Shown: positions 43,777 to 57,056 of the stretch, piece by piece
Numbering within the stretch: the stretch's first letter is position 1
How the letters are laid out: each line of letters opens with the position of its first letter
Origin: Moheibacter sediminis
Lineage (GTDB): Bacteria; Bacteroidota; Bacteroidia; Flavobacteriales; Weeksellaceae
Assembly (NCBI RefSeq): GCF_900176425.1
Contig: NZ_FWXS01000001.1
Location: forward strand, 124,001 to 188,000
Reading direction: 5' to 3'
Length of the DNA stretch: 64,000 bases
Notes under the pieces: model-generated
The model's database searches: none
What the model saw: only the letters and a program-made list of their open reading frames with translations
What the model was told of the DNA's origin: nothing
Translations under genes and position numbers: made by a program

Positions 43777-46089
43777 TTACTTTTTAACCACTTTTTTCGT
43801 TGTTGTTTTCCCATCTTTGGTTGAAATTTTTACAAGATAAATTCCTTTTGGCAAAGATGAAATGTTGATTTGATTGGAATTAAATTCAGAAATTTTTCTT
43901 CCTGACAAATCAAATAAATTTACATTTTGGACTTCAGATTTGGATTGGAAATTTAATATTCCCGTTGTAGGGTTTGGATAAATGGTCACGTCAGAAATAT
44001 TAGAATTGATTTCTTCATTTCCCAGCGTTGTTAAATCCAAAGTATATTTCACCAATCCCAAATCCTGAACCAAGAAATATACATCTGCAGAATTTTCTCC
44101 CGTAAACATAATATCCGTTGAAGTTGCACGCATGAAACCTAATTCGTCTGTTCCGATTTCCTCCCAAGTTTCGCCATTATTTTTGGTATAAATCGTTTTT
44201 GCATCAGAAGCAGGGTAGCCAAAAAGACCGCCATCTTCGAAATGAGAAGAAGCAACGATCTTTCCTTCGGTGAAAGAAGAAAATTCAACTTTGTTCATCG
44301 GCGATTCATCGTAAACCTGTGTCCAGGTTTGTCCTGAATCATTTGAAATGAAAATACCAACTGAAGTTGCAGCAGCTAATTCCTGCGAGTTTAACGGATT
44401 TTTTTTCAAATCATACACAAGATGACCTTCTTCAACTGCATAAAGTTCTGTCCAGGTTTGACCATTATCTTGTGTTTTGTAAATTTTATTTCCTTGAGCC
44501 ACATAAAAAATATTGTCATCTGCAGCATCAAACATTACACTTGTGACCGTCCCAAAAGATGGCGGCATGATTTCCTGTGTAATTATATTTTCTAAATCTG
44601 TGATATCTGATTTATAAATGATTTCTCCCATTGAAACCACAATTTTATTTGGGTTTGGTTCAAAGCTGTCAACTGCAATCAACATGATGTAGCTTCCGCC
44701 TAAAATTATGGAAGATGTTTCGCCGTGGTCGCTGCTCATAGAAAGGGCAGCATTTCCCATCATTCCACTCATCACAGAAAAATAAACTCTTCCAGCCACA
44801 TTTCTGTCTGCATGAGTACCGCTGTTTGATACATTTGGAGTAAAATCAATTGGCAATAAATTAAATCCTTCCTCAGTTCCCTCCTGTAAATTCTGGTGCA
44901 TCAAACCATTTCTCAAACCATAATAAACGTGTTGTTCCTCTTTTCCAAAAACCGCCAATCGTCCAGTTGGATTTACAAAAGGGGAATTTAATCTGGATAA
45001 ATTTTCTCCGCCATCTTGTGAAATGAACGGATAATAATTCGCACAGATAATCACTTCATTATTTACAAATGGATTAAAGGAAGCCGTCAAACCATAATAA
45101 TAATCTTCAGGATTAAGCGGATAAACATAATTCGTCCAGGTATTTCCTCTGTCATAAGAAATCACGATTTCATTTTCTTCCAAAATCAAGATTTGATTTA
45201 AATCCAAAGGATTGTAAGTTATGGAATGAATGCTGTTGGTTGACATAGAAGACCAGTCGATATCAACTACATTCCAGGTTTCACCACCATCTTGAGAACG
45301 ATAAAGATTTTGCTCCTGACCTTCTCCCAAATAAAAGGTTCCTAAAAATATATCGTCCACATTTGCCGGATTAAATGTAATCGCTGAATAAACCGTTCCG
45401 GCAATTTTTTCTGTCCAGGTCTGTCCCGCATCGTTCGAAATTAATAAACCTCCTTCCATAACATCCGGTGAACCTCCACGCATGATGAATAATTTATCAG
45501 CGTCAGAAGGAGAAATTGCAACATTATTTACATGGATATTTCCATTGTCCAAGCTTTTATATACCAAATCCCAATTATTACCTCCATCAGTTGTATAATA
45601 AACTTCTGTTTGCAACCCAAAATCAAATATCTTGGTTGTATGCATCAAAACCGTATCATCATTGTTTTTGAAAATACTGTATGACTGAATCAGGTTATCT
45701 GGTTGATTTCCTATTGGTGAAGAAAATTCTTTACTTACCGATTCCGTTTCTATATCCAAAATAACAATCTTGTTCAATTCTGTTCCTTGAGCCGTACAGA
45801 TAAATGACAAAGCTGTGCCGTCGTTGAGAAGGCGCATATCTTTGATGGTGACATACATATTGTCCTGAGGATGCGAATAAATCACTTCCCAGTCTGCGCC
45901 TTTGTTTGTTGATTTTACAATATGATTCGTAACCGTTCTTGCATAAATAACATTCTGGTGGTTCGGGTCAAAGGTCACGTCAAAGACCTGACCGTATTCT
46001 TCCGATGCTTCAAACTGCATCTGTGCATTTGAAAGTGTGGCAGAAAACATTGCCAAAACAATCGTCCAAATAATAAAACTATTTCTCAT
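43777..46089 (-). CDS. T9SS-secreted Asp-box (sortilin/BNR-like) beta-propeller protein
   Basis: 770 residues. Signal peptide 1-22 (LSNAQ). About 23-690 is a propeller with repeated Asp-box motifs of the form S-x-D-x-G-x-T-W: STNKGADWE, TTDGGNNWD, SNDAGQTWT, SQDGGETWN, SYDRGNTWT, TQDNGQTWT, SNDSGQTWT and TKNNGETWE. Such folds occur in sialidases, VPS10/sortilin-type proteins and photosystem assembly factors; the Arg triad of sialidases is not recognisable. The last 75 residues are a sorting domain (TIYPNPTTGILNFQ ... DGKTTTKKVVKK). It is probably a surface adhesin or binding protein. Direct repeats lie upstream and a TPR-HTH regulator gene comes next. Confidence 0.87.
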   Translation of the reverse strand: MRNSFIIWTIVLAMFSATLSNAQMQFEASEEYGQVFDVTFDPNHQNVIYARTVTNHIVKSTNKGADWEVIYSHPQDNMYVTIKDMRLLNDGTALSFICTAQGTELNKIVILDIETESVSKEFSSPIGNQPDNLIQSYSIFKNNDDTVLMHTTKIFDFGLQTEVYYTTDGGNNWDLVYKSLDNGNIHVNNVAISPSDADKLFIMRGGSPDVMEGGLLISNDAGQTWTEKIAGTVYSAITFNPANVDDIFLGTFYLGEGQEQNLYRSQDGGETWNVVDIDWSSMSTNSIHSITYNPLDLNQILILEENEIVISYDRGNTWTNYVYPLNPEDYYYGLTASFNPFVNNEVIICANYYPFISQDGGENLSRLNSPFVNPTGRLAVFGKEEQHVYYGLRNGLMHQNLQEGTEEGFNLLPIDFTPNVSNSGTHADRNVAGRVYFSVMSGMMGNAALSMSSDHGETSSIILGGSYIMLIAVDSFEPNPNKIVVSMGEIIYKSDITDLENIITQEIMPPSFGTVTSVMFDAADDNIFYVAQGNKIYKTQDNGQTWTELYAVEEGHLVYDLKKNPLNSQELAAATSVGIFISNDSGQTWTQVYDESPMNKVEFSSFTEGKIVASSHFEDGGLFGYPASDAKTIYTKNNGETWEEIGTDELGFMRATSTDIMFTGENSADVYFLVQDLGLVKYTLDLTTLGNEEINSNISDVTIYPNPTTGILNFQSKSEVQNVNLFDLSGRKISEFNSNQINISSLPKGIYLVKISTKDGKTTTKKVVKK

Positions 46090-46198: not shown

Positions 46199-47851
46199 TT
46201 AAATTGTTGACAGATAAGAATATAAAGTCATTCCTTCCTGAATCTGTAGTTTTTTGGAGATGCGTTCTTTTCTTTTGCGGCAAGATTGCGGTGTGATATT
46301 GAGCAATGAAGAAATTTCCTTGTTACTCAAATTCATGTAAACATAAATAATGAATCGAACTTCCGATGCAATCAAATCCGGATGTTTGGTTTTCAATCGG
46401 TCGATGTAACCTTGGTTACTTTCCTCAAAATGTTTGAAAAAACTTTCCCATTGTGTATCTTGTTTCAAATGATTTTTGAGTTCACGGGTGTATTTGGATA
46501 AATTTTCGTTGCGTGAAACTTCCGGTTGCTGCGAAAGTAATTTGATTACGTCTTCAATCAATTCATTTCTGCTTGATTGATGCACTTCTTTGGCTGTTAG
46601 TTTCCGGTTTTTTAATTCCAGTTCATTTCTCAATCTTTCCTGTTCCAACAATGCCAAAGCTTCTTTTTCACGCAATTGTTTTTCCCGGATTAAATTGTCA
46701 GTTCTTTCTTTATTTAATTCAAGTTCAGCAATTTTTTCCTGTTGTTTATGTTTAACAGCATTGTTTCTAAAAATCCAAATTACCAAAATCATAACCAGCA
46801 AACCTGCAGCGATAATCGTGTAGAAGAATTTCCGCTCGTATTCCAGTCTGCGTTGTGTTTGTTCTAATTCATATTGGTAATTCTGAATTTCGAATTTAAT
46901 TTTACCATTTTCAAAAAGTTTTGTGTTTTTTGCTGAATTCAAAGAATCTTTCATCATGATGACTGAATCTTTGTACAAAAGGGAAGGTTCATACTTCTGC
47001 GATTTTGCCAAAATTTGTGACAAATATTCATACGTATCTACCTTATCCTGAAAAGTATGCGCCAGATTTCTTGCCTGAAATGCATAATTTTCTGCTTTGG
47101 GATAATCATTTTTCTTTTCATGAATTTGTGCCAAGACCAAAAGCGTGAAAATTTTATTTTCAATTTGTTCTTCTCCTTTTAATTCAGGTAAGATGGAAAG
47201 TGCAGTTTTCTCTGCTTCATCATTGAAACCTTTGAGCATACGGTTTTCTGCCAATGCCATTTTAACCATTAATGAATTATTGGAATCATTTTTCACCAAA
47301 GAAATTGCTTCATTTATATAAACCGAAGCTTCATCCGTTTTCTTCAATTTATTCAATACCAAACCTAAATTAGTAGCATACAAACCTTTCTTTTCCTCCA
47401 ATTTATTTTCTTTGGCGATGTTGTAGGCTTTGAGGAAATAATCATATGCTTTTTGGTTATTTCCTTCTTGAAAATAGAGAATCGCGATGTTGTTTAAAAC
47501 CGTCATTACCTGACTGTTATCGGACATTTCGGTTGCGATTTCGTAAGCTTCGAGGTAGTATTTCAGTGCTTCACCGTAATCGAGCATGAGGTAATAATTG
47601 GCGCCGATATTGTTAGTTGCACGGAAAGATTCTTTGTTCCAGCCATTGGCTTCAGCCATTGTTTTGGCTTTAACCAAAAGTTCCAAAGATTGTGCATGTT
47701 CTTTGTTGAACATTTTTTCAATTCCATTTTGAATAATTTTTTCACATTCCTGTTGTGTTTGTGTTAATCCGAAAAATGGAATTAACAATAAGATAATAAG
47801 GAAGCAAATCTTTTTAGTGAATTTGAAATGATATGTAGGGTTTTGGTTCAT
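46199..47851 (-). CDS. TPR-transmembrane-HTH regulator
   Basis: 550 residues. Signal or first helix at about 14-30, then six or more tetratricopeptide repeats (about 35-310, e.g. ATNNIGANYYLMLDYGEALKYY-type and VLNNIAILYFQEGNNQKAYDYF). One transmembrane helix lies at about 343-361, a coiled coil at about 365-430, and a LuxR/sigma4-like helix-turn-helix at the C-terminus (SEVRFIIYVYMNLSNKEISSLLNITPQSCRKRKERI, about 495-535). TPRs lie in the periplasm and the HTH in the cytoplasm, so it may convert an envelope signal to transcription directly. Such proteins are a Bacteroidota speciality. It is divergent from the DUF2480 gene; targets unknown. Confidence 0.88.
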   Translation of the reverse strand: MNQNPTYHFKFTKKICFLIILLLIPFFGLTQTQQECEKIIQNGIEKMFNKEHAQSLELLVKAKTMAEANGWNKESFRATNNIGANYYLMLDYGEALKYYLEAYEIATEMSDNSQVMTVLNNIAILYFQEGNNQKAYDYFLKAYNIAKENKLEEKKGLYATNLGLVLNKLKKTDEASVYINEAISLVKNDSNNSLMVKMALAENRMLKGFNDEAEKTALSILPELKGEEQIENKIFTLLVLAQIHEKKNDYPKAENYAFQARNLAHTFQDKVDTYEYLSQILAKSQKYEPSLLYKDSVIMMKDSLNSAKNTKLFENGKIKFEIQNYQYELEQTQRRLEYERKFFYTIIAAGLLVMILVIWIFRNNAVKHKQQEKIAELELNKERTDNLIREKQLREKEALALLEQERLRNELELKNRKLTAKEVHQSSRNELIEDVIKLLSQQPEVSRNENLSKYTRELKNHLKQDTQWESFFKHFEESNQGYIDRLKTKHPDLIASEVRFIIYVYMNLSNKEISSLLNITPQSCRKRKERISKKLQIQEGMTLYSYLSTI

Positions 47852-48517: not shown

Positions 48518-49726
48518 TTATTTAGCCTCTCTTAGCAAAACAGTGTAAACTGCAAAGTGGTCACTGTAACCGTTTGCGTAGTAGGTATCTCCACCGTACA
48601 TTCTGAAAGGGTATCCTTTGTACTGACCTTCCGGAGTTACCGTATAAGCGGGAGAGAATATATCGGATTTATAAATTTTGTAGGATTTATATTCTTTTTT
48701 GGTTTCAACCATGTTTCCGGTTGTAAGGATTTGGTCAAATAAATTCCAAGAATCTCTGTACGCCAAAGTTCCCATTCCTTTTTTATACATCGGTTCCATA
48801 ATGTTATAAATGTCGCTGTCTTTGACTTTGTCTTTGTCACCTTTTGCGCCCATAATTTTTTTGATGCTTGGACTTACCGGATCGTCATTGAAATCTCCCA
48901 TTGCCATGATTTTCGCATTGGGATTTTTTGCTCTGATGTCATCAAAGATTCCTTTCATTACTTCAGCAGCTTTTGCACGTTTAGGCATACTTGCCTTTTC
49001 TCCACCGCTTCTTGAAGGCCAGTGGTTCACTAAAAACGTAATTTCTTCTCCGTCCAATAATCCAGTTACTTGTAAAATGTCACGTGTATAAGTACGATTG
49101 CCATCATCATTGAAGATTTCAATTACATGAGGTTTTGTCTCTGTAACTCTAAATCTGTCTTTTTGGTAAATCAATGCAACATCAACACCTCTCGCATCGA
49201 AAGAATTGAAATGCGCTATACCATAATTATATGGTTTTAACGTTGGTTGATTTATTAAATCTTCAACAACTTTTCTGTTTTCTATCTCGCACAGACCTAC
49301 AATCACTGGAGCAGACTGTGTTTGATCTTTTCCTAATTGAGAAATTACATGAGCCAAATTCTTAAGTTTTTGATTATAACGAGCCTCTGTCCAAACCTTT
49401 TTTCCGGTAGCAGAATATTCGTCCTGTAAAATCAAAGGGCGGATGATTTTTTTCCCCTGAATATTTTCATAAGTGTATCTCTCTTTGAACGAAACCGTAT
49501 CATATTTTGATACTTGATCGGCCGCAATGGAAACATGGTAATTTGGGTTTGTATATTCTAATGTACCATCAATATATCCTACCGAAGCTTCCGTATCAAA
49601 CAGATTTTCAAGATTATAAAAACCAATAGTAGCTGATTGGTATTTTTGCTGAGCTGTCAGCGGCGTTGAAAACAATGTTACCAAAACTGTTAACTTTGTT
49701 AAAGATTTAATAATTTTATACATCAT
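48518..49726 (-). CDS. Secreted endonuclease/exonuclease/phosphatase (EEP) family protein
   Basis: 402 residues. Signal peptide (residues about 1-25, TPLTAQ). EEP fold (PF03372/PF19580 type) with the metal and catalytic residues: Asn in GFYNLENLFD (about 37), Glu in VGLCEIENR (about 145), VALIY strand, VNHWPSRSGG (His), AMGDFNDDP (Asp-Asn-Asp) and the C-terminal SDHFAVYTVL (Asp-His). The exact substrate (DNA, RNA, phosphodiester or phosphomonoester) cannot be told. Exported from the cytoplasm, it would work in the periplasm or outside. It is divergent from a TonB receptor-DUF5689 pair, with which it probably forms a nutrient system. Confidence 0.9.
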   Translation of the reverse strand: MMYKIIKSLTKLTVLVTLFSTPLTAQQKYQSATIGFYNLENLFDTEASVGYIDGTLEYTNPNYHVSIAADQVSKYDTVSFKERYTYENIQGKKIIRPLILQDEYSATGKKVWTEARYNQKLKNLAHVISQLGKDQTQSAPVIVGLCEIENRKVVEDLINQPTLKPYNYGIAHFNSFDARGVDVALIYQKDRFRVTETKPHVIEIFNDDGNRTYTRDILQVTGLLDGEEITFLVNHWPSRSGGEKASMPKRAKAAEVMKGIFDDIRAKNPNAKIMAMGDFNDDPVSPSIKKIMGAKGDKDKVKDSDIYNIMEPMYKKGMGTLAYRDSWNLFDQILTTGNMVETKKEYKSYKIYKSDIFSPAYTVTPEGQYKGYPFRMYGGDTYYANGYSDHFAVYTVLLREAK

Positions 49727-49735
49727 ATATTTTGT

Positions 49736-49743
49736 TACATTTG
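49736..49743 (+). promoter_or_regulatory. Promoter -7 element TACATTTG of the TonB-DUF5689 operon
   Basis: Exact TAnnTTTG match in the 85-bp gap between the EEP and receptor genes, 69 bases before the receptor ATG. Immediately downstream the sequence CCTCA-N7-TGAGG (49747-49763) is an inverted repeat near the expected transcript start, a possible operator. Confidence 0.5.
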
Positions 49744-49811
49744 TGCCCTCATAAATTTTGAGGACTTATCTGTTTTTGAGTTCGCAAAATTAAAGATAAA
49801 AATACTTTTTA

Positions 49812-52577
49812 ATGAATAAATTATTGTTAAGTATGGCCTTTCTCATTTTGATGGGAATTACACTTATGGGCCAAACGCGAATTTCGGGGATTGTCAAAGA
49901 TGCTACAACCGAAAAAGAGATTTATGACCTGAAGGTCTTACTAGTTGAAACCGGCGAGGAAGTCAAAACTGACAGAATCGGTTATTTTCAATTTGTGGAC
50001 GTTGCTGAAGGAGCCTACACTATCCGTATTTCCGGAGTAGGGTACGAAACTTTGGAAAAAAACCTAACCGTAAGCGATCAGAAAAACGTTGATTTAGGAA
50101 ATGTTGCTGTCAAATTTAACCCAACCAGTGTAAATGTAGGTTTGGTTACTTTGACCGTGGATGATTTGGACGGAGACGAATCTTCTTCCCAATCTGCAGT
50201 AGGTCTGCTCCAATCTTCTCAAGACGTTTTTGCAAGTACAGCGGCGTTTGAATTGGGTGCTTATTGGTTCAAAGTAAGAGGATACGATAACAAATACAAC
50301 GAAGTATTTTTCAATGGTGTCCGAATGAACAAAACAACCAATGACCGTGTAAACTTCGGAAACTGGGGTGGGTTGAATGATGTGACACGCCGTCCGGCTG
50401 AGCAGACTTTAGGTATCGAACCTTCTGATTATGCTTTTGGAGACATCGGAGGTGTAACTTATTTCGACACAAGACCATCTCAAATGAGAAAAGGAACCAG
50501 CTTGGCTTATTCATTTACCAACAGATCTTACAACCAAAGAGTTTTGGCAACCTACAATACAGGTTTGATGGAAAACGGATGGGGATTCATGGGGTCTTTC
50601 TCCCGCCGCTGGGCTGAAGAAGGTCGTGTGGAGGGAACTTTCTATGATTCTTGGGGTTATTTCTTGGGAGTTGAAAAGAAAATTAACGACAAACATACCA
50701 TCAACTTTACTGGTTTCGGAGCGCCGACAAGACGCTCTACCAACAGCCCAAATACACAAGAAGCCTATGATTTAAGAGGAAATGATTATAACTCTTACTG
50801 GGGATGGCAAGATGGTGAAAAAAGAAGTGAAAGAATCCGTGAGTTCCACGAGCCGGTTCTTATGATGACACATCACTGGAACATCAACAAAAACACCAAA
50901 TTGACTACAACCGCTTCTTATATGTTTGGTAAAGATAGCAGAAGTCGTTTGGATTGGTATGATGCGAAAAACCCAACGCCAACTTATTATAAAAATATGC
51001 CAAGTTATTGGGAAACTGAAGAGACTTTGAATCCTGAAGAAATTCAAAATACATATAACGCTTGGGCGAATGATCCAAAAAGATATCAGATTGACTGGGA
51101 TAATATTTATTTACAAAACTATACTCGTAATGAAGTTGGAGAAGGCGCCGCTTACGTTTTGGCAGCTGATGTGATTGAAGATAAAACAATGAGTTTTTAT
51201 ACAAACCTCAAAGGGAAAATAGCAAGCAACATAGATTTTATTGCCGTTGCAAGCTATCAAAACACGCAGTCTGAGTATTACAAAGAAGTTTTAGACCTAT
51301 TGGGTGCAAACCATTATGTTAACCACAATGCTTTTCAGGGAAATTATTATAATGTTGACGAAAGCAGAGATAGAAAAGTCGGGGAAGGTGATAAATACCA
51401 ATACAATTACGAATTAAACCACCAAATTGCTGACATATTCTTTCAAAGTGTAGTTAAATTAGATAAACTAGACATTACATTTGGAGCAAGGGCATCTTAT
51501 ACAAGTATGTATCGTGATGGTAAATACAGAAATGAATTGTATTTGAATAATTCAAAAGGAAAGAGTGAGACGTACGATTTTTACAATTTCGGTGCAAAAA
51601 CACAATTCTTATATAAATTAGACGGAAGAAATTTCATTCAATTAAACGGAGAATATGCAACATTTGCACCAACAGCTGACGAAGTTTTTCCAAATGCGAG
51701 AACCAACGACTTCACAGTTGATAAATTAGAAAACACGAAAGTACTTTCCGGAGACTTAAGCTATATCTTACGTGCGCCAAGAATCAAAGGTAGAGCTACC
51801 GCTTTCTACACCAAATTCATGGACGAGTACGAAAGAAGCTTTGGGTATATTGACGTAACAAGTGGTACGGCAGGAGATGCAAATGTATTTACTTCAGAAG
51901 TATTAGCTGGTGTTGATAAACTTCATATTGGTGCAGAAGTTGCTTTAGAGGCTCAGTTAACAACGACTTTAACTTTATCAGCAGTGGCTTCTATCGGACA
52001 ATTTACTTACGAAAACAGCCCAGACTATTACCAATTTTCTGACAGTGATGCATTATTGGATTTCGGAGGACGTAAAAATTATGGAAAAGCTTACCTGGAA
52101 GACTATAAAATAGCAGTTGGTCCACAGCAAGGATATTCATTAGGATTAGAATACCGTGCTCCACAATATTGGTGGTTAGGTGTTACAGGAAACTATTTGG
52201 CTCAAAACTACATGGATATTGCTATGTACAAAAGAACCCAAGGTTTTATTTCTGACCCTACAAATCCAGGATTTCTATTTCCAAACGTAAATGAAGAAAC
52301 TTTGAGAACGTTGTTGAAACAAAATAAATTTACAGACGAGTTCATGCTAAACGTAAACGCAGGTAAATCTTTCCGTTTCGGACAATACAATATGGGAATC
52401 AGTTTAACTGTAAACAATGTATTGAACAACAAAAATTACGTAACCTCTGGTTTTGAACAAATGAGAGTGGGTAATTATGTAGAAGCTCAGCAGGAACAAT
52501 CGCAAAGACGATTTGCTCCAAGAATGTGGTACGATCAGGGAATCTCTTACTTCTTAAACGTTTATTTCCGCTTTTAA
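49812..52577 (+). CDS. TonB-dependent receptor with carboxypeptidase-regulatory-like domain
   Basis: 921 residues. Signal peptide (about 1-20), then a carboxypeptidase-D regulatory-like domain at about 22-105 (RISGIVKDATTEKEIYDLKVLLVETGEEV). A plug domain follows (AAFELGAYWFKVRGYDNKYNEVFFNGVRMNKTTNDRVNFGNW), then a large barrel ending YFLNVYFRF, with Phe last as in outer-membrane barrels. The structure fits a receptor of the SusC-like size class that imports large ligands, not a siderophore receptor. It is transcribed with the DUF5689 lipoprotein gene 34 bases downstream, as SusC/SusD-like pairs are, and lies opposite a secreted EEP enzyme. Substrate unknown; nucleic-acid-derived compounds are an inference from that neighbour. 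Confidence 0.88.
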   Translation: MNKLLLSMAFLILMGITLMGQTRISGIVKDATTEKEIYDLKVLLVETGEEVKTDRIGYFQFVDVAEGAYTIRISGVGYETLEKNLTVSDQKNVDLGNVAVKFNPTSVNVGLVTLTVDDLDGDESSSQSAVGLLQSSQDVFASTAAFELGAYWFKVRGYDNKYNEVFFNGVRMNKTTNDRVNFGNWGGLNDVTRRPAEQTLGIEPSDYAFGDIGGVTYFDTRPSQMRKGTSLAYSFTNRSYNQRVLATYNTGLMENGWGFMGSFSRRWAEEGRVEGTFYDSWGYFLGVEKKINDKHTINFTGFGAPTRRSTNSPNTQEAYDLRGNDYNSYWGWQDGEKRSERIREFHEPVLMMTHHWNINKNTKLTTTASYMFGKDSRSRLDWYDAKNPTPTYYKNMPSYWETEETLNPEEIQNTYNAWANDPKRYQIDWDNIYLQNYTRNEVGEGAAYVLAADVIEDKTMSFYTNLKGKIASNIDFIAVASYQNTQSEYYKEVLDLLGANHYVNHNAFQGNYYNVDESRDRKVGEGDKYQYNYELNHQIADIFFQSVVKLDKLDITFGARASYTSMYRDGKYRNELYLNNSKGKSETYDFYNFGAKTQFLYKLDGRNFIQLNGEYATFAPTADEVFPNARTNDFTVDKLENTKVLSGDLSYILRAPRIKGRATAFYTKFMDEYERSFGYIDVTSGTAGDANVFTSEVLAGVDKLHIGAEVALEAQLTTTLTLSAVASIGQFTYENSPDYYQFSDSDALLDFGGRKNYGKAYLEDYKIAVGPQQGYSLGLEYRAPQYWWLGVTGNYLAQNYMDIAMYKRTQGFISDPTNPGFLFPNVNEETLRTLLKQNKFTDEFMLNVNAGKSFRFGQYNMGISLTVNNVLNNKNYVTSGFEQMRVGNYVEAQQEQSQRRFAPRMWYDQGISYFLNVYFRF

Positions 52578-52610
52578 ACCTTAATTTTAATTTTATAACA
52601 CGACAATAAA

Positions 52611-53996
52611 ATGAATACAATCAAAAAATTTAGAAATCTTTTCTTTATCCTTTTAGGATTAGGATTGGTACAATCTTGTGTACAAGATGACGAATACGCG
52701 ATACCACCTACTGATATTGCTTGTAGTGATATTTGGGAAACCAGCTTGACACTTCATGAATTGGTAGCTATGGTAGATGCAGACAGTGATGGAATTGTAA
52801 GTTTTTCGGAAGAAACAATCATCGAAGGCTATGTTATTTCCGATGACAATCCTGGAAACTTCTTCAAAACGATTTCAATTCAAGACAGTCCAACCAATCC
52901 AACTATTGGTGTTCAAGTAGAAATTGACGAATACAACTTGGCAAATTACTTCCCTATTGGTTCGAAAATTAAAATCAACCTTAAAAACATTTATGCAGGA
53001 TTCGACAGAGGTGTTTACAAAGTAGGTGAAACTTATGTTCAGGGAGACCAAACCAGAGTAGGTCGTATGAGATCTAGCATCTTTAAAAATCATGTAAAAA
53101 GATCTTGTGGCGATTTAGTTACAATAGAACCAGTTGTTTTTGAAACAATAACTGAGGCAAAAACTTCAGGTAAATTGAATACTTTAATTAAAATAAATAA
53201 TGTTCAGTTTACAGATGAAATGTTAAATTTACCATTTGCAGCTCCAAATGTAACTGAAGATAAATTACTTGAAGATGAAAGTGGTTCTACAGTTATTTTA
53301 AGAAACAGCGGTTACTCTGATTTTGCCGACCAAATCGTACCTGAAGGAAGTGGAAGTATTACTGTTGTTATGAGCAAATACAATAGTACAGTTCAACTAT
53401 ACATCCGTGATGAAAACGATGTTCAATTTAACAATCCTCGTTTCGGTGATGGAAACGGTGGCGGTGGAGAAGGTAACGACCAAGAGGCTGCAAATTTCTT
53501 ATTCAATGGAGCAGATTTTGAAAACTGGACTAACTTCTTAGGATCACTTAATTCTTTTGGATTAACCACAGGTTTAGCTGTTCAAAGTCCTGGAACCGGT
53601 CGCGATGGGTCAAACTCATTCTATTTGAATGGTACTACCGGATCAACAAATCCATATGTATTCACAGTTCGAGCTGATGCATCTACTATTCCAGCCAATG
53701 CTACAAAAATTACAATGTGGATAAAAGGTTCTTCTGCTAAATCATTGTCATTTAATTTAGATACAACTAGCGGACGTGTTTTCTATAACATAGGCGATCT
53801 TGGCGCTGAAAACTTGACCCTATCACCTCAAGAAAATAACCAATACATAGGCACCGTTAATACAAATGACCAATGGAGATTAGTTACACTAAACATCACT
53901 GGTTTAACTTTAAATACTACCGGAGATTTACTTGCTTTAAAAGCAGGATCTGGTACGGCTTATAACCTACACATCGATAATATCAAGATTGATTAA
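52611..53996 (+). CDS. DUF5689 domain surface lipoprotein
   Basis: 461 residues. Lipobox VQSC (Cys23) then VQDDE, the acidic surface-export signature. N-terminal DUF5689 (TIIEGYVISDDNPGNFFKTISIQDSP, PIGSKIKINLKNIYAGFDRGVYKVGE, about 40-260), an OB-fold-like nucleotide-type domain. A Gly-rich linker (FGDGNGGGGEGND, about 280) leads to a C-terminal beta-sandwich (ENWTNFLGSLNSFG ... NLHIDNIKID), resembling a carbohydrate-binding or choice-of-anchor domain. It follows the TonB receptor gene and would act as its surface capture partner. A strong terminator follows. Confidence 0.87.
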   Translation: MNTIKKFRNLFFILLGLGLVQSCVQDDEYAIPPTDIACSDIWETSLTLHELVAMVDADSDGIVSFSEETIIEGYVISDDNPGNFFKTISIQDSPTNPTIGVQVEIDEYNLANYFPIGSKIKINLKNIYAGFDRGVYKVGETYVQGDQTRVGRMRSSIFKNHVKRSCGDLVTIEPVVFETITEAKTSGKLNTLIKINNVQFTDEMLNLPFAAPNVTEDKLLEDESGSTVILRNSGYSDFADQIVPEGSGSITVVMSKYNSTVQLYIRDENDVQFNNPRFGDGNGGGGEGNDQEAANFLFNGADFENWTNFLGSLNSFGLTTGLAVQSPGTGRDGSNSFYLNGTTGSTNPYVFTVRADASTIPANATKITMWIKGSSAKSLSFNLDTTSGRVFYNIGDLGAENLTLSPQENNQYIGTVNTNDQWRLVTLNITGLTLNTTGDLLALKAGSGTAYNLHIDNIKID

Positions 53997-54257: not shown

Positions 54258-57056
54258 ATGAAAATAATTACCAGATTCAATTTATTCTTCATTTTATTTT
54301 TAATTTTATTATTCAAAGCTCAGGCACAAAACACAGTAACCATTTCCGGTACAGCACTCGACGAACTGAAATTTCCAGTAGAAGCAGCCACAGTTTATCT
54401 TTCTCAGAAAAAAGATTCTACCGTAATTGATTACACGATTACAGACAAAGAAGGAAAATTTAAACTGGAAATAAAGAAAATCAACGAACCGGTTTTTTTT
54501 CGTATTTCAGATGATTTGAACGGAGATTATTTTACAGAATTTTCATCGCTTACAGAAAATAAAGAATTAGGAGAAGTCAGTTTGTCCACTGCAATCAATT
54601 TAAACGAGGCAATTATAACCGGTGCGCCCCCGATTCGAATCAAAACCGATACTTTGGAATTTAATGCTTCTTCTTTCAAAGTTCGTCCGGATGCCAATGT
54701 GGAAACACTTTTGAAACAATTACCCGGTGTTGATATTGATGAAGACGGAAAAATTACCGTCAACGGAAAAGAAGTAAACCAAATTTTAGTAAACGGAAAA
54801 CCGTTTTTTGACAAAGATGGGAAAATCGCTTTACAAAACCTTCCTGCCAATATCATCAACAAAGTGCAGGTAACCGATACCAAAACCAAAAAAGAAGAAC
54901 TTGCAGGTGACAAAGCCAGCGGAAATAATTCGAGTATTAATCTCACGATAGACGAAGACAAAAACAAAGGCTTCATGCTCAAAGCACTTGCCGGATACGG
55001 GACAGATGAGCGTTACGAATCGAGCTTGATGATGAATTATTTCAAAGGAAATACAAAGCTGAGCGTTTTGGGCTCTTCGAACAATATCAATTCGGTGGGA
55101 TTTTCGATGAATGATATTTTCGACAATATGTCGGGTGGAAGAAACCGAAGCATTATGATGAGTGACAATGGTTCTTTTGGGATTAATGGAATTAATTTTG
55201 GTGGAAGCGGAAACGGAATCACACAGTCCAACATTGGCGGAATTAATTATTCAGATACCTGGGCTAAAGATATTGATGTCAACGGAAGTTATTTCTATAC
55301 CGATTCTGATACCAAAAATAACAACAGAACAATTCAACAGAATTTATTGCCGAACAATACCTATACCACGGAATCCGTTTCTACGAGCAGAGATCAATCT
55401 TCCAATCACAATTTCACTACGAATTTTGAAGTGAAAATTGACTCTACAAGCAGCATTTGGTTTGAGCCGGGTTATGCGTACAACAAAACAAAATCTTTCA
55501 ATGATTTCAGAAATTTTTCTGTCAATGAATTGGGCGAATTATTGAACGAATCCACTGGGACATCCAACAATGAACAAACGAAACAAACTTTTTCAAACAA
55601 TATCAATTTCTTCAAATCCTTTAAAAACAAAACTCAGATAAGCCTCGGATTTTCAAATAACAACAGCCGCGACAAAGGAGATGGGATTAACGTTTCAAAC
55701 ACTTATTTTTATCAGTCTGGAGACGCAGACGACATACGAAATCAATATACGCAAGACCGCAACCGACAAGATGAATTTGAGTTTAATTTCGAATATGAGT
55801 TGCCAATTCTGGATTCAGCAAATTTGGCGATAGGTGTGGATTATACCATAAGAAATCTGAGAGACAACACCTACACTTTTGATTATGACGAAGTTTTTGG
55901 AGATTATGTAAACGAAAATGAACTTTTAAGTTTTGAATTGTCCTCGGATTTCAACAGTGTAAATCCATTTGCGACCTATAAAATTAGAAAGAAAAAATTC
56001 AATGCGTCCTTCAGTGGAGGAGTGGAATTTTTGACGCAGAAAAATAGCGGAAATTATATGTCTGAGAATTATTACCTCAAACAAAATTATGCTTTGCCTA
56101 CGTTCTCTGTCAACGGGAATTATAGAATGGGAAAAGGATCGTCCATTTATGCGAATTATAATTATGAAGTAAATCTCCCATCGGCGCAGCAGCTTTTACC
56201 AATAGAAAATTTAGCAAATCCACTCAATACTTACATCGGGAATCCTGATTTGGAGCCAACCAAAACGCACTCTATTTATGCAGGTTGGAACAATTTCAAC
56301 TTTCAGTCTAAAACGGGTTACAACATTCATTTTGGAGGAAATTTCCAGGAAGTCGGCATTACGAACTACCGTATCATTGATGAGAATTTTGCCACCACTT
56401 CCACTTATAGAAACGTGAAAGGAAATTACAATCTCTGGGGTGGAATTAATTTCAATAAATCATTTACAAAAGACCAAAATAAATTCAGAGTCGGAGGTGG
56501 AATTAATATTAATCATTCCAATAACAAAGGTTTTGTGGATGGAGAAGAATTCATTTCAAAAAATTACAGCATCACGCCTCGTATTAATTTCAATTGGGAT
56601 TTAGGTAATATTCTGACCATCAATCCGAGTTATAATTTGCGTTATCAGTTCAATCAATATGAAAATTACCGCATCGAAGAATCGACTAATATCGTGCACA
56701 ATATCAAACTGACAACTACGAATTATTGGCCCAAAAATTTTGTTTTCGGAAACGATTTCGGATACACTTACAATTCCAACATTGCAGACGGATTCAAAAA
56801 AGATTTCTTTTTGTGGAATACGAGTTTGGCGTACAATTTCTGGAAAGATCAATTGACTTTCAAAGTAAAAGTTTATGATGTTTTAAATCAAAATACTGGT
56901 GACAGAAGAACCGTTTCAGATACTTATATTTCCGATGTTCAGAACGATGTTTTGCAGCGTTATGTAATGTTTTCGCTTGGATTCAAACTGGATAAATTTG
57001 GAGGAAAATCTGACAAACGTCCGGGAAGAGGCGGTAGAATTATGATTTTTGATTAA
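54258..57056 (+). CDS. Outer-membrane beta-barrel protein (OMP_b-brl_3 type)
   Basis: 932 residues. Signal peptide (FKAQAQ, about 24), carboxypeptidase-regulatory-like domain (about 26-115), then a plug-like segment NVETLLKQLPGVDIDEDGKITVNGKEVNQILVNGKPFF (about 155-195), typical of this TonB-receptor-related family (PF14905). A long barrel follows, with Asn/Ser-rich loops (GGSGNGITQSNIGGINYSDTW). The C-terminus is an unusual basic tail (GGKSDKRPGRGGRIMIFD) after the last barrel strand. Family members are outer-membrane proteins of unknown transport role. Single gene, with a free-standing 200-bp leader region upstream. Confidence 0.85.
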   Translation: MKIITRFNLFFILFLILLFKAQAQNTVTISGTALDELKFPVEAATVYLSQKKDSTVIDYTITDKEGKFKLEIKKINEPVFFRISDDLNGDYFTEFSSLTENKELGEVSLSTAINLNEAIITGAPPIRIKTDTLEFNASSFKVRPDANVETLLKQLPGVDIDEDGKITVNGKEVNQILVNGKPFFDKDGKIALQNLPANIINKVQVTDTKTKKEELAGDKASGNNSSINLTIDEDKNKGFMLKALAGYGTDERYESSLMMNYFKGNTKLSVLGSSNNINSVGFSMNDIFDNMSGGRNRSIMMSDNGSFGINGINFGGSGNGITQSNIGGINYSDTWAKDIDVNGSYFYTDSDTKNNNRTIQQNLLPNNTYTTESVSTSRDQSSNHNFTTNFEVKIDSTSSIWFEPGYAYNKTKSFNDFRNFSVNELGELLNESTGTSNNEQTKQTFSNNINFFKSFKNKTQISLGFSNNNSRDKGDGINVSNTYFYQSGDADDIRNQYTQDRNRQDEFEFNFEYELPILDSANLAIGVDYTIRNLRDNTYTFDYDEVFGDYVNENELLSFELSSDFNSVNPFATYKIRKKKFNASFSGGVEFLTQKNSGNYMSENYYLKQNYALPTFSVNGNYRMGKGSSIYANYNYEVNLPSAQQLLPIENLANPLNTYIGNPDLEPTKTHSIYAGWNNFNFQSKTGYNIHFGGNFQEVGITNYRIIDENFATTSTYRNVKGNYNLWGGINFNKSFTKDQNKFRVGGGININHSNNKGFVDGEEFISKNYSITPRINFNWDLGNILTINPSYNLRYQFNQYENYRIEESTNIVHNIKLTTTNYWPKNFVFGNDFGYTYNSNIADGFKKDFFLWNTSLAYNFWKDQLTFKVKVYDVLNQNTGDRRTVSDTYISDVQNDVLQRYVMFSLGFKLDKFGGKSDKRPGRGGRIMIFD

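Follow-up and report, generated by a model that had tools for sequence, protein, structure and literature searches.

In Vibrio and Neisseria, DNA is taken up across the outer membrane by a type IV pilus and its secretin. Few type IV pilus homologues have been reported in Flavobacterium johnsoniae, and the way in which the Bacteroidota transfer DNA over the outer membrane without the usual uptake pilus is the question addressed by the locus described here. The closest described genes are those of Riemerella anatipestifer, a bacterium of ducks. A transposon screen for natural transformation of this organism, published in 2021 (PMC8459023), covers RA0C_RS04915, described as an outer-membrane, carboxypeptidase-regulatory-like protein, and RA0C_RS04920, a DUF5689 protein. 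Markerless deletion of either gene reduced transformation from the wild-type value of 5.4e-5 to below detection (about 4e-10), a loss comparable to that seen in comEC, dprA and recA mutants. In the model put forward there, RS04920 binds dsDNA and RS04915 carries the DNA inward, and the nuclease making the single strands is left unnamed. The paper refers to RS04910 a single time, as an upstream gene whose transcription stayed the same, and contains no discussion of an EEP neighbour. Loss of tonBA or tonBB also lowers transformation of R. anatipestifer, with an iron defect in the tonBB mutant only (PMC8383284). In the literature searched (without bioRxiv and most subscription journals), DUF5689 or the tags RS04910, RS04915 and RS04920 were found in PMC8459023 alone and no published test of the EEP gene was found.

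A locus of similar composition was examined in a stretch of 64,000 nucleotides from Moheibacter sediminis (contig NZ_FWXS01000001.1, positions 124,001 to 188,000), referred to as the window. Its three open reading frames and the divergent gap between two of them, as given in an earlier note made from the letters alone, were confirmed on the sequence and are collected in Table 1. The gene for the DUF5689 lipoprotein follows the receptor gene on the same strand after 33 bp. The gap between the EEP and receptor genes contains a TAnnTTTG-type box on either strand, which we take to be the Bacteroidota -7 box. The gap in a relative of the same genus (G605) is likewise 85 bp long and has TAnnTTTG-type boxes.

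Table 1. The three genes and the divergent gap, numbered from the first letter of the window.
Feature	Positions	Strand	Size and basis
Secreted EEP-fold enzyme (PF19580 Exo_endo_phos_3)	48518-49726	-	402 aa ORF, Pfam
Divergent intergenic gap	49727-49811	.	85 bp, sequence
Outer-membrane receptor with CarboxypepD_reg	49812-52577	+	921 aa ORF, Pfam
DUF5689 (PF18942) surface lipoprotein	52611-53996	+	461 aa ORF, Pfam

The R. anatipestifer comEC primer site taken from PMC8459023 was present as an exact match in two of 320 genomes of the family, G620 and G622. Both show the order comEC, a 145-aa gene, a 542-aa gene and the EEP gene, with the receptor and DUF5689 genes running in the opposite direction. 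The tags RS04895 (comEC), RS04915 and RS04920 fit this order if they are counted in steps of five, thus the Riemerella EEP gene would be RA0C_RS04910. The window EEP is 47% identical to the Riemerella EEP and the window receptor 40% identical to the Riemerella receptor. A receptor profile gave a single hit above 1000 bits per genome in all 16 genomes, the next best being at most 237 bits. Judged by sequence and gene order, the window receptor and lipoprotein are orthologues of RA0C_RS04915 and RA0C_RS04920; the two genes are in the same order and the EEP gene is in the same divergent position. A requirement in transformation has been shown for the R. anatipestifer pair, and the role that we assign to the receptor and lipoprotein in M. 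sediminis rests on this orthology. The earlier note had stated that no system of this make-up was characterised. This was partly wrong, given that the receptor/DUF5689 pair is already known as a pair of transformation genes (PMC8459023); neither the conserved EEP partner, as a candidate nuclease, nor a tandem OB fold in DUF5689 was found in print.

The genome of M. sediminis also encodes ComEC and a DUF1343 protein, and contains HHH_3 matches, made at the level of the domain, which are candidates for the counterpart of RS02645. ComEC was found in 59 of 60 receptor-positive genomes and in 59 of 136 receptor-negative genomes, a comparison confounded by relatedness and completeness and therefore of little weight. 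M. sediminis, which is not known to be naturally competent, may be so.

The receptor has clear CarboxypepD_reg domains in Pfam, and its Plug match, at 18 bits, lies under the cut-off of 23.9; four of 16 receptor orthologues match Plug at E<=0.01. No SusC/RagA model among the Pfam and NCBIfam models matched the receptor. When the PDB was searched with its sequence, CarboxypepD-type domains were returned together with one marginal match judged to be due to chance. The description of the protein as a SusC-size TonB receptor is thus correct as to size, and the implied kinship with SusC is not upheld. The locus shares with the SusC/SusD glycan importers a large CarboxypepD_reg receptor with a surface lipoprotein encoded downstream, and a lid arrangement is possible, but the absence of a SusC/RagA match in the receptor and of a SusD domain in the lipoprotein, which has an OB fold instead, led us to reject a SusCD assignment. 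One genome has a disrupted receptor gene (L107, G302:C19:401297-404102), split into two ORFs with in-frame stops.

The lipoprotein scored 208 bits against PF18942 in Pfam and is the product of the only DUF5689 gene in the genome. The lipobox cysteine, C23, is invariant in 15 of 15 aligned sequences and the acidic stretch CVQDDE running from the lipobox resembles what we take to be the surface-export signal of the Bacteroidota. The AlphaFold model is confident from about residue 40 to residue 277, while the C-terminus (about 280-461) has a pLDDT below 50 and is uninformative. The part at about residues 31-277 aligns as tandem OB folds, which VIA places at about 31-175 for the first and about 173-285 for the other, so the 'OB-like' domain mentioned in the earlier note is borne out as two such folds. 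MCM10 (Z 9.2, rmsd 3.0, 107 aligned) and Teb1 (Z 9.2, rmsd 3.0, 96 aligned) shared the top of the VIA ranking, with lysyl-tRNA synthetases just behind them. The best Foldseek matches, at E-values from 1.6e-4 to 7e-4, were the p204 HIN domain, a chain of an NER complex, RPA70 with ssDNA and a telomere end-binding protein. The modelled tandem folds resemble the DNA-binding domains of RPA and HIN-200 proteins and support a predicted binding of nucleic acid by DUF5689, although the ligands of OB folds are many. A PDB sequence search with the DUF5689 domain gave no match, the sole hit being to profile positions 322-445, downstream of the domain.

The OB region is acidic, with a pI of 4.4 in the window protein and 5.2 in the Riemerella protein. 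This is unusual for a DNA binder and divalent cations might act as a bridge. Divalent cations restore transformation of EDTA-treated R. columbina, an unspecific effect that is compatible with cation-bridged DNA binding or with a metal-dependent EEP.

Among distant relatives, DUF5689 was found fused to an EEP domain in one secreted chain (L218) and to PLD-like domains in other secreted proteins (L215 and L219). These fusions tie the two halves of the locus to one another independently of gene order. Lipoproteins of about 690-725 aa containing two DUF5689 domains were observed at five loci (L063, L064, L072, L082 and L083), and several Flavobacterium loci have a short additional gene between the receptor and DUF5689 genes.

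These observations on the lipoprotein bear on whether the pair handles DNA at all. The pair could instead handle a different substrate or have a part in forming the cell surface, such as its LPS, in which case the loss of transformation in the R. anatipestifer mutants would be indirect. The Riemerella DUF5689 orthologues pass the model of the NF052645 M949_1556 family with 564-599 bits against a cut-off of 475, the R. anatipestifer protein scoring 599, and M949_1556 is cited in PMC4976936 and PMC12566107 as being associated with LPS and also with antigenicity and virulence. M949_1556 may be the same gene as RS04920, a putative identity; the window protein, at 245 bits, is not a member of this family. 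On the other side, the tandem OB folds, the DUF5689-EEP and DUF5689-PLD fusions and the conserved linkage to the EEP gene (below) all favour nucleic acid as the substrate, and an indirect effect through the surface appears quite improbable.

The EEP protein scored 360 bits against PF19580, for which the cut-off is 27. Residues N38, E147/E149, H235, D278, N280, D331, D389 and H390 are invariant in all 16 aligned linked orthologues, in agreement with the complete catalytic residues claimed in the earlier note; the active-site roles of these residues are those expected from DNase I and TDP2. The structure model (mean pLDDT 79.6) has the four-layer EEP fold and was aligned by VIA with TDP2 (Z 23.2, rmsd 3.1, 232 aligned) and DNase I (Z 21.2, rmsd 3.1, 230 aligned). 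The nearest folds were TDP2, a Bacteroides EEP protein, Nocturnin and CNOT6L. Nucleases and phosphatases are found alike among the fold neighbours, and the presence there of Nocturnin and the mannose-6-phosphatase Bt3783 means that the EEP fold is one that phosphatases have too. Sugar phosphates, lipids and NADP(H) are further substrates of enzymes with an EEP fold. No match was obtained in a PDB sequence search with the EEP protein. A secreted EEP enzyme, here a putative nuclease, is the feature common to this locus and the ExeM/NucH extracellular endonucleases (NF033681), but here the OB-fold lipoprotein and the EEP enzyme are the products of separate genes. Membership of the window EEP in NF033681 was rejected as it gave no match to the model, which has a cut-off of 300 bits; the Riemerella and Chryseobacterium EEPs gave weak matches of 22-24 bits, far under this cut-off. 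The EEP protein may be a DNA-cutting enzyme and, if so, is a candidate for the missing part of the uptake machine.

The earlier note had proposed a survey of gene neighbourhoods, and the linkage of the DUF5689, EEP and receptor genes proved to be strongly conserved. BLAST searches with the window proteins were used to look for the partner genes in sixty regions, each of at most 20 kb, that surround DUF5689 matches; most of the regions come from the same taxonomic order and two from other parts of the class. Receptor and DUF5689 genes occur together in 58 of the 60 regions, and in 40 of them a divergent EEP gene abuts the receptor gene. The divergent EEP gene was found in 26 of 27 regions from the family of M. 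sediminis, the sole miss being at a contig end, in 14 of 28 Flavobacteriaceae-type (f2) regions and in none of the remaining five. Counted by genome, the receptor was present at E<=1e-80 in 60 of 196 genomes of the order; on combined coordinates, 44 of the 60 have the EEP gene directly next to it. In a set of 80 loci from named genomes, picked by receptor similarity, DUF5689 follows the receptor on the same strand in every case (80/80), and in 74 the EEP gene directly adjoins the receptor gene and diverges from it. Of the six loci in which it does not, two have less than 200 bp of upstream DNA, leaving 78 informative loci with the EEP gene upstream in 74 and unlinked in four. The third set comprised 32 receptor-bearing loci, one for each genus-like group, with two each from Flavobacterium and Riemerella. 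Within 8 kb of the receptor, DUF5689 was found in 32/32 and EEP in 27/32, on the opposite strand every time, and no other neighbouring family reached more than 8/32. The three genes thus form a conserved unit and their surroundings do not.

The exceptions in these counts raise the question of whether the EEP enzyme belongs to the import apparatus. The receptor and lipoprotein might import DNA while the EEP acts outside the import, as a competing extracellular DNase, as a remodeller of biofilm DNA or as a phosphatase that happens to share the promoter. The EEP gene is unlinked in 14 of the 28 f2 loci, all of which retain the pair, and in the four named loci above, and so it is not an always-adjacent part. 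The match of its fold to Nocturnin and Bt3783 would also suit an enzyme with another task, and the EEP gene is not among the hits of the 3000-mutant screen (PMC8459023). Nevertheless the divergent linkage has been kept over many genera (27/32, against at most 8/32 for other neighbours) and the fusion in L218 joins DUF5689 and EEP in one chain. An EEP outside the import is somewhat unlikely on this evidence, although it is the most probable of the alternatives.

The locus probably encodes an outer-membrane module that imports DNA for natural transformation independently of a pilus, with the EEP enzyme as its third part. The DUF5689 surface lipoprotein with its two OB folds would hold extracellular DNA above a dedicated TonB-dependent receptor which, energised by TonB, would draw the DNA into the periplasm. 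ComEC would then take in one strand from the periplasm. The EEP enzyme would most likely nick or trim the DNA, or free an end, for threading through the receptor or for handing on. Of these steps, we infer direct DNA binding by DUF5689, passage of DNA through the receptor and the nuclease activity and role of the EEP. Both this module and the pilus and secretin of Vibrio and Neisseria would deliver DNA over the outer membrane to ComEC, the receptor and lipoprotein standing in for the pilus and secretin. The reported presence of homologues of the pair in F. johnsoniae (PMC8459023), which was not transformable in the conditions tried, counts against a DNA-import function.

The earlier note had read the locus as a system that captures, degrades and imports nucleic acid or organic phosphate. 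Capture and import of nucleic acid are supported by the orthology, the OB folds and the EEP linkage. A degradation step is possible, although full degradation would misfit transformation, and the nutritional or phosphate purpose is not supported. If nutrients were being scavenged, the EEP would degrade extracellular nucleic acid or phosphoesters, and what the pair then brings in would be a source of phosphate, carbon or nucleosides. The locus would be suitable for this, as its secreted EEP has kept the active-site residues and is accompanied by a lipoprotein for capture and by a receptor with an energy supply, and some bacteria are known to eat DNA by way of their transformation machinery. However, phosphatase, nucleosidase, phosphate-uptake or phosphate-metabolism genes do not recur near the 32 genus-like loci and there is no SusD partner. 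When phosphate is removed, transformation of R. anatipestifer falls and that of R. columbina about doubles, and such opposite effects in two Riemerella species do not fit scavenging. The total loss of transformation in the R. anatipestifer mutants, at the level of comEC and dprA mutants (PMC8459023), is also hard to square with nutrition. Scavenging is thus unlikely as the purpose of the locus; compared with transformation, nutrition is the weaker explanation for its handling of DNA, though still one to be considered.

Should DNA import be correct, the three genes would constitute a widely conserved module with a division of labour between capture by OB folds, import powered by TonB and processing by the EEP. 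Many flavobacteria without known competence would then be equipped to acquire genes, and TonB-dependent receptors would be able to transport a polymer of the size of DNA. It is possible, though less likely than not, that a large part of the Bacteroidota takes up transforming DNA with no pilus by such a TonB-driven channel, a tandem-OB surface lipoprotein resembling RPA and HIN proteins being its lid and DNA-binding subunit, and the EEP being the dedicated nuclease that makes the DNA transportable and that is missing from the published model.

Several further genes were observed around the loci. In the window, a T9SS-sorted sortilin/BNR-repeat protein and a TPR protein are encoded at 43777-46089 and 46199-47851 on the minus strand, the TPR protein having a weak sigma-70 region 4/LuxR-type match at its C-terminus; both genes also adjoin the three-gene locus in G605 (L229), the relative from the same genus. 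The locus is followed at 54258-57056 on the plus strand by the gene for another large outer-membrane protein, a member of the OMP_b-brl_3 family, and BLAST of the sixty DUF5689 regions gave no gene like it. In G622 (L202:9991-15432) and G620 (L204:10011-14213) the gene for a large protein is found just downstream of the uptake pair. The start of this protein reads like Cas9, and two smaller genes beside it in G622 read like Cas1 and Cas2, which makes this a putative CRISPR locus adjoining DNA-uptake genes. In one further genus (g192), another gene of the competence type, a ComF-like one (L234:16360-17022; TIGR00201, 82 bits, under the cut-off), is located on the far side of the EEP gene at a distance of about 5 kb.
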